The notes beneath the pieces are model-generated. The model did no database searches, was not told the DNA's origin, and saw only the letters and a program-made list of their open reading frames with translations. Source: Sphingobacteriales bacterium (lineage in GTDB: Bacteria; Bacteroidota; Bacteroidia; Chitinophagales; Chitinophagaceae). From it: a stretch of DNA of 64,000 bases. The stretch lies in the NCBI GenBank assembly GCA_016235125.1, contig JACRLZ010000007.1, positions 1 to 64,000 on the forward strand, in the 5' to 3' direction. Both the position numbers and the translations under genes were made by a program. Of the stretch, positions 19,991-45,344 are shown piece after piece (positions within the stretch are counted from its first letter, which is position 1; the number at the start of each line of letters is the position of its first letter).

Positions 19991-20063
19991 GCCACTTTAG
20001 CTCAGCTGGTAGAGCAACTGATTTGTAATCAGTAGGTCGTTGGTTCGATTCCGACAAGTGGCT
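19991..20063 (+). tRNA. tRNA-Thr (anticodon TGT)
   Basis: Acceptor arms GCCACTT/AAGTGGC, anticodon stem ACTGA/TCAGT around loop TTTGTAA, and T-arm GTTGGTTCGATTCCGAC. The CCA end is not encoded. Confidence 0.95.
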
Positions 20064-20069
20064 CATTAA

Positions 20070-20154
20070 GCCACATATCTATTGATAATCTCAGTAGGTC
20101 GTTGGTTCCCTGCCCGACTGAAGTCGTTCAGGCGGGGATTCCGACAAGTGGCTC
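20070..20154 (+). pseudogene. degenerate tRNA-Thr copy interrupted by a 28-bp palindrome
   Basis: Right after the intact tRNA-Thr, its 3' half recurs. TCAGTAGGTCGTTGGTTC (20091-20108) and GATTCCGACAAGTGGCTC (20137-20154) are identical to the real gene but are separated by a 28-bp insert in the T-loop. Upstream, GCCAC at 20070 and AATC at 20087 look like remains of the 5' half, most of which is lost. It cannot fold as a tRNA. Confidence 0.75.
20109..20136. repeat. 28-bp REP-like imperfect palindrome inserted in the tRNA copy
   Basis: Begins CCTGCCCGACTGAA and ends TTCAGGCGGG. The ends pair as six consecutive base pairs (one G-T) with further internal pairing. It interrupts the T-loop between TTC and GATT without loss of a base on either side. 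Confidence 0.75.
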
Positions 20155-20158
20155 CGGA

Positions 20159-20179
20159 CAACGGAACTCGGTTCCGTTG
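20159..20179. repeat. perfect hairpin in the tRNA-Thr/Tyr spacer
   Basis: CAACGGAAC and GTTCCGTTG form a 9-bp perfect stem with loop TCG. It lies 5 bp beyond the degenerate tRNA copy. Confidence 0.8.
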
Positions 20180-20186
20180 CTAATGA

Positions 20187-20205
20187 ATCGAATCGAAGAT
20201 TCGAT
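20187..20205. repeat. second perfect hairpin in the tRNA-Thr/Tyr spacer
   Basis: ATCGAATC and GATTCGAT form an 8-bp stem with a GAA loop, 7 bp after the previous hairpin and 4 bp before tRNA-Tyr. Confidence 0.8.
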
Positions 20206-20209
20206 ATCC

Positions 20210-23803: not shown

Positions 23804-23874
23804 CCCGATAAAATCGGGAATGAAGAATCCGATAGCTATCGGATTGGGAGACTAAGTATCCGCCAGCTGGCGGA
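23804..23874. repeat. three palindromes in the rplK leader
   Basis: First: CCCGAT-AAA-ATCGGG (23804-23818). Second: a perfect 20-bp palindrome with centre GATAGCTATC (23826-23845). Third: a perfect 16-bp palindrome TCCGCCAGCTGGCGGA (23859-23874). They follow the -7 element and precede the rplK ATG by 31 bases, so they would be transcribed. Their words resemble a hairpin near 45.3 kb (CCCGAT-TGCT-ATCGGG). Confidence 0.8.
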
Positions 23875-45326: not shown

Positions 45327-45344
45327 TCCCGATTGCTATCGGGA
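45327..45344. repeat. palindrome TCCCGAT-TGCT-ATCGGGA
   Basis: A 7-bp perfect stem with a 4-nt loop between the sugar transferase and the M1 peptidase gene. It resembles the first two palindromes in the rplK leader. Confidence 0.75.

Follow-up and report, generated by a model that had tools for sequence, protein, structure and literature searches.

How does an incomplete copy of a tRNA gene come to carry a palindrome at one exact point of its T-loop? The question arises at a tRNA-Thr locus in the stretch of DNA analysed here (the window, 64,000 nucleotides of a Sphingobacteriales genome, which its closest EF-Tu relatives place in the Chitinophagaceae, Bacteroidota), in which the intact gene is followed by a duplicate piece of itself that is split in the T-loop by the 28-bp palindrome CCTGCCCGACTGAAGTCGTTCAGGCGGG (Table 1). 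The left block of the copy comprises the 3′ anticodon strand, the variable loop, the 5′ T-stem strand and the TTC of the T-loop, and the right block comprises the remaining T-loop, the 3′ T-stem strand and the 3′ acceptor strand. As the initial annotation had described, the palindrome lies between TTC and GATT with its flanking bases intact; the breakpoint is unambiguous (TTC^GATT, where ^ marks the break), and the palindrome was never obtained in shuffled windows. The same annotation had taken the copy for a 3′ half lying 28 bp from the intact gene. The two blocks are indeed exact, the distance is 26 bp, and the duplication extends beyond the 3′ half. Because the spacer contains AGCCAC, which is complementary to GTGGCT at the end of the copy, together with a helix resembling an anticodon arm, the copy is a decayed tRNA without a D-arm. 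In the predicted fold of the copy region (-41.1 kcal/mol, z -6.3), the acceptor stem and an anticodon-like arm are present, the palindrome extends the T-arm, and the D-arm is missing. A duplication of the 3′ half alone was rejected for this locus, given the 5′ acceptor-like strand, and for the sister loci elsewhere, where some copies are 5′ pieces, others are nearly full-length and others have swapped arms. The tRNA-Thr locus shows neither a nuclease ORF nor remains of one, the 26-bp spacer being without an ORF.

Table 1. Features of the tRNA-Thr locus, in positions of the window
Feature	Position	Strand	Evidence or remark
Intact tRNA-Thr(UGU)	19991..20064	+	ARAGORN; Rfam RF00005, 72.7 bits
Spacer and degenerate 5′ part of copy; AGCCAC (20069-20074) pairs with 20148-20153	20065..20090	+	Folding, z -6.3
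Left block of copy, TCAGTAGGTCGTTGGTTC	20091..20108	+	18/18 identical to 20029-20046
Palindrome, 28 bp, in T-loop	20109..20136	+	No base lost, no target-site duplication
Right block of copy, GATTCCGACAAGTGGCTC	20137..20154	+	18/18 identical to 20047-20064
Spacer with two hairpins, homologous to the spacer after tRNA-Thr in relative G010	20155..20209	+	Alignment, folding

Comparison of the same locus in relatives, which the initial annotation had suggested, revealed the state without the copy. In one relative (G010), the intact tRNA-Thr is directly followed by a spacer that aligns with the post-copy spacer of the window, so that G010 has the empty site. None of about 28 further relatives has the copy at this locus; across about 28 other loci of the genus, the spacer between Thr and Tyr measures 1-131 bp and is without such a copy. 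The copy would have been either gained in the lineage of the window or lost from all other sampled lineages.

The palindrome also has other copies in the genome, the absence of which the annotation had named as a refutation of its view. A search of all 3,575,020 bases returned 2 copies within 3 mismatches and about a dozen that are loosely alike. The best match apart from the tRNA-Thr one, with 1 mismatch, lies just after the tmRNA gene (G000 C7:307422; L002 1490-1545), where it is placed between GGTTC and GA and precedes a second, imperfect tmRNA 3′ end that agrees with the original at 15 of 18 bases. A third, nested palindrome occupies TTC^GAATCC of a partial tRNA-Gln copy. Partial copies accompany 7 of the 53 tRNA genes searched in this genome, making nine in total with tRNA-Thr(CGU) (L249) and tmRNA added, and 8-9 of the nine carry a hairpin by inspection; these within-genome counts are based on sequence searches and fetched stretches. 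Outside such copies the palindromes are rare, with three in the entire 64-kb window, that of the tRNA-Thr copy included. Hairpins of the types seen in tRNA copies lie at 23859-23874 (TCCGCCAGCTGGCGGA) and 45327-45344 (TCCCGATTGCTATCGGGA) of the window, with no tRNA there. Related palindromes also stand in apparent coding sequence (L089, G000 C5:480233; L086, C6:356602), and at L089 the reading frame seems open across the palindrome. In its placement within coding sequence, the palindrome at L089 resembles Rickettsia palindromic elements, which also occur there; the main feature of the window-type palindromes is the tRNA-loop position.

The initial annotation had pointed to a REP-associated tyrosine transposase (RAYT) and to past integration at a tRNA attachment site, neither of which found support. 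The palindromes resemble REP sequences (PMC6006769) in being short, present in several copies, also in tandem, and free of target-site duplication, but the window palindrome has no GT[AG]G foot, may be low in copy number and is strongly concentrated in tRNA copies. Its flanks at the hairpin base are GGTTC and GATTC. This genome has three Y1-transposase genes; in the 2 kb around each, palindromes of other kinds occur but none of the palindrome families searched, and many relatives have no Y1-transposase genes. Mobilisation by a RAYT was rejected, as no cognate Y1 gene is flanked by the window palindrome. The locus shares with integrative elements at tRNA attachment sites a duplicated tRNA 3′ end adjoining an intact gene. 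In contrast to such elements, the copy is about 90 bp away, the 26-bp spacer holds no integrase or cargo, and the sister loci also include 5′ copies, near full-length copies and whole-arm swaps. An attachment scar was rejected because the ORF found between tRNA and copy at sister loci is a small GIY-YIG gene, with no integrase.

We searched 398 Chitinophagales genomes for the pattern GGTTCCCYGCCN{8,28}GGCRGGGAWTC, using the reversed pattern as a control. The arrangement GGTTC-palindrome-GAWTC was matched 29 times, in 14 of the 398 genomes and in 12 genera, and the reversed control gave 0 matches. Nearly all 29 matches are the T-loop of a partial copy of a neighbouring tRNA (Thr, Arg, Glu, Leu, Phe, Ser, Val and Pro), mostly 30-340 bp from the intact gene and usually with the T-stem paired 5/5. 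Cases without an ORF, like the locus of the window, are common among them. The palindrome sequence varies between genomes and the insertion point is constant, a constancy that the search pattern itself presets, so that the bias-free evidence is the palindrome-blind survey of GIY-YIG genes described below. A search of 395 phylum-wide genomes with one palindrome family returned the window as its sole match and nothing from the sampled genomes outside Chitinophagales. In a Flavobacterium MAG (L061 2180-2290), the intact tRNA-Thr gene is followed by a remnant of tRNA-Thr in which another palindrome adjoins the T-loop, a hint that the pattern may extend beyond the order. In genome G024, 3-4 palindromes of the T-loop family stand head to tail in two arrays (L174, C66:4313-4401; L384 1101-1183, C84), of which L174 is placed in an orphan T-arm-like context. 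The borders of the units in these tandem palindromes are GGCGGG^CCTGCC, in keeping with the annotation's view of a clean insertion with readable borders.

At several of the T-loop loci, a small ORF matching the Pfam GIY-YIG family (E 1e-13 to 1e-16) fills the space from the tRNA to its copy. We surveyed the association in reverse, fetching 64 small GIY-YIG matches of the genus and disregarding palindromes. A same-strand tRNA lies close to 33 of the 64 ORFs, and about half are not adjacent to a tRNA. On the far side of most tRNA-adjacent ORFs, part of that tRNA is repeated, and the repeated part bears a foreign hairpin either within a loop or substituted for an arm; the usual layout is an intact tRNA, a small GIY-YIG ORF and a hairpin-bearing partial tRNA copy, or the mirror order. 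Under a strict automatic rule, which required a perfect foreign stem of 6 bp or more, 19 of 28 copies carry a hairpin, compared with 16% of 841 control windows of 100 bases each from the same loci as the copies. Counted by eye, with interrupted or loopless palindromes included, the figure is about 27 of 31. A chance origin of the arrangement was rejected on the basis of these control windows, the shuffled windows and the reversed-pattern control. The T-loop cases in this unbiased set (L276, L283 and L330) have their break at TTC^GAATCC. In G024, tandem tRNA-GIY-YIG units are joined exactly at TTC^GATTCC. The proteins are only about 80-110 amino acids long and have no recognisable DNA-binding domain, and relatives of one of them occur in Rhizobium phages (36-38% identity). 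Their ORFs are under purifying selection: dN is well below dS, and dS is mostly saturated. The case in the window is one instance of this wider pattern, and searches of the open-licence literature found no account of chromosomal GIY-YIG genes accompanied by tRNA copies with hairpins.

When hairpins with matching tRNA sequence on both sides were sought, five classes of site emerged. In class 1, the hairpin is inserted exactly at TTC^GAWTCC of the T-loop, and in class 2 exactly at GGCGRA^ATTGGT of the Leu D-loop. In class 3, the 17-nt anticodon arm is exactly replaced by TCCCG...CGGGA; in class 4, the D-arm is replaced (Phe and Pro); and in class 5, found in Met, the insertion follows CATA and 10 nt are missing. 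A single tRNA-Arg copy, L212, carries a hairpin in each of its three loops. Native anticodon-loop bases tend to stay in swapped arms (similarity 77, a value reached by none of 20,000 permutations, whose mean was 62.9 and sd 3.3), in a test of cases hand-chosen from related genomes and thus not fully independent. Tandem tRNA-Thr 5′ copies of about 90 bp occur upstream of the intact gene in three genomes (L128 and L129, G024 C59 and C10; L131, G015 C160; L119, G030 C44), their anticodon arm changed to a hairpin of the TCCCG...CGGGA type. The idea that these arrays are unrelated was dropped, as the hairpin scan places them in the arm-swap class. On a tree of 35 GIY-YIG proteins, the hairpin class changes 6 times, compared with a mean of 17.4 and a minimum of 14 in shuffles, and the tRNA amino acid changes 20 times. 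The T-loop clade of nucleases goes with tRNAs for Glu, Gln and Leu; in the Leu case, whether the hairpin is in the T-loop or the D-loop depends on the nuclease clade. The hairpin site thus seems to track nuclease subfamily more than tRNA species, a signal that is weak with one row per class and tRNA type (6 versus 8.7, p about 0.03).

A precedent comes from SegB, a free-standing phage GIY-YIG homing endonuclease of the tRNA regions of T-even phages, which cuts within tRNA genes (PMC13096335). Its motif, RAWTSGAAC (GTTCSAWTY on the other strand), is not strictly required, and DNA bearing it is cut better; SegB drives the tandem amplification of tRNA-segB units by way of a short stretch of homology that the tRNA shares with the end of segB, and the resulting arrays collapse without selection (PMC13096335). 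On the other strand, the motif is the tRNA T-loop. The Chitinophagales loci and SegB have in common a GIY-YIG gene beside tRNA genes, a motif that equals the T-loop, tandem tRNA-nuclease units and a nuclease gene whose far end is briefly homologous to the tRNA (PMC13096335). By contrast, the Chitinophagales genes are chromosomal and encode putative tRNA-gene nucleases of about 80-110 amino acids; their subfamilies pair with different tRNA loops or arms, the displaced copy bears a hairpin, and the tRNA-Thr locus of the window has no nuclease ORF. By analogy, the small chromosomal proteins may share the preference of SegB. In the displaced tRNA-Thr copy, the SegB-type motif is interrupted, GTTC and GATTC being parted by the palindrome, and the same motif is still whole in the intact tRNA-Thr.

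We propose that the feature in the window is an ORF-less member of a family of tRNA-targeting GIY-YIG elements in Chitinophagales, a reading to which we give an even chance. A nuclease of the SegB kind would prefer a motif within tRNA genes, break repair or recombination would leave a duplicated tRNA piece behind, and a palindrome would come to occupy exactly the preferred nuclease site of the displaced piece. The palindrome would wreck the motif and shorten the direct repeat shared with the intact gene, stabilising the locus, and would let the displaced piece fold on itself, with no pairing to the intact tRNA in a shared transcript. In its favour are the recurrence of the T-loop insertion, the association of GIY-YIG ORFs with tRNAs, the purifying selection on those ORFs, the link of hairpin site with nuclease subfamily, the agreement of the T-loop with the SegB motif, the tandem units of G024 and the predicted drop in mispairing. 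This scheme supposes that the nucleases cut tRNA genes and home, that hairpins are acquired and that the locus in the window formerly had an ORF. Several points count against it. The intact tRNA keeps the motif and would also be cut unless flanking context matters; the absence of a nuclease ORF at the locus of the window is one of the weakest points; and the proteins are small and without a recognisable DNA-binding domain, with about half of their ORFs lying elsewhere than beside a tRNA. The weak tree signal with one row per class and tRNA type, and the two T-loop cases in which folding gains nothing, also weigh against it.

A bolder version, which we consider possible but somewhat doubtful, is that a large family of chromosomal selfish elements exists in Chitinophagales, in which each minimal GIY-YIG nuclease is specialised for one tRNA loop or arm, part of the tRNA is duplicated, and the displaced part is protected by a hairpin that swaps or extends the targeted arm, amounting to cut-and-rescue at essential tRNA genes. 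If true, small GIY-YIG ORFs, scattered palindromes and partial tRNA copies would be one kind of mobile element, one whose targets are essential tRNA genes but which leaves its host unharmed. The loci would be natural experiments on the cost of tRNA duplicates and on the target choice of minimal nucleases, and the target site of each nuclease subfamily would be predictable from its sequence, with GGTTCGAATCC, near TTC^GA, as the predicted target of the T-loop class and GGCGAAATTGGT as that of the Leu D-loop class.

An unlikely rival is that REP-like palindromes seek out loops, inserting into the hairpin loops of tRNA DNA that is highly transcribed and transiently single-stranded; hits in intact tRNAs would be lethal, hits in dead copies would survive, and the link to GIY-YIG genes would be secondary. 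Such palindromes would insert exactly into T- and D-loops, losing no bases and duplicating no target site, as is seen, and the tRNA-Arg copy with all three loops filled, the related copies elsewhere in the genome (one within coding sequence) and the nested and tandem palindromes fit as well. The exact replacement of whole arms, the kept anticodon-loop bases and the link between hairpin site and nuclease subfamily are left unexplained. Moreover, such palindromes are scarce outside tRNA copies (three in the 64-kb window, the tRNA-Thr one among them), those outside tRNAs have no common TTC^GA target, and a mobilising enzyme was not found.

Folding predictions bear on our reading and also on a second rival, in which selection acts at the RNA level only: ordinary tandem tRNA duplicates would be harmful when they pair with the intact tRNA, locally folding mutations would be selected, and no nuclease would be needed. 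As a measure, we used the number of base pairs that the intact tRNA is predicted to form with other parts of the transcript. In ten T-loop cases, this number is 13.3 with the hairpin and rises to 24.1 when the hairpin is removed, to 17.4 when the inserts are shuffled and to 22.7 when the hairpin is moved to another place in the copy, so that position within the copy counts; 2 of the 10 have no folding benefit. Across 28 hairpins of all classes, a set that includes some duplicate or closely related rows, mispairing is below that of the native sequence in 25 and above it in none (Wilcoxon p 5e-6). By folding prediction, the hairpin keeps the displaced copy from mispairing with the intact tRNA, as both our reading and selection on RNA would have it, and the frequent ORF-less cases are also expected on this account. 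It leaves unexplained why, in this genus, every second small GIY-YIG ORF or so is a neighbour of a tRNA, why the hairpin site follows nuclease subfamily and why the break is constantly at TTC^GA, given that neighbouring offsets do equally well in the folding model. We regard selection on RNA alone as improbable, and the nuclease-based reading remains our preferred one.

A one-off history, in which tRNA-Thr was duplicated in tandem by chance, or an attachment site left an old scar, and one chance palindrome was later inserted, would suit the ORF-less spacer and the presence of the copy at this locus in only this genome of those examined, but is very improbable and already disfavoured by recurrence: no integrase is present, the same position is occupied at many other tRNA and tmRNA copies against a control of 0, and 8-9 of the 9 partial copies of this genome bear hairpins.

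Some small GIY-YIG ORFs lie away from tRNAs, one of them (L270, G000 C6:312323) between the inverted repeat arms TTTACCCCGT...ACGGGGTAAA and others (L254, L260 and L265) amid other repeats. Elsewhere in the genome, a dense run of a dozen tRNAs, some of them degenerate, adjoins an ATPase-like ORF (L172, G000 C5:398500-401700) and looks like the tRNA array of a mobile element.
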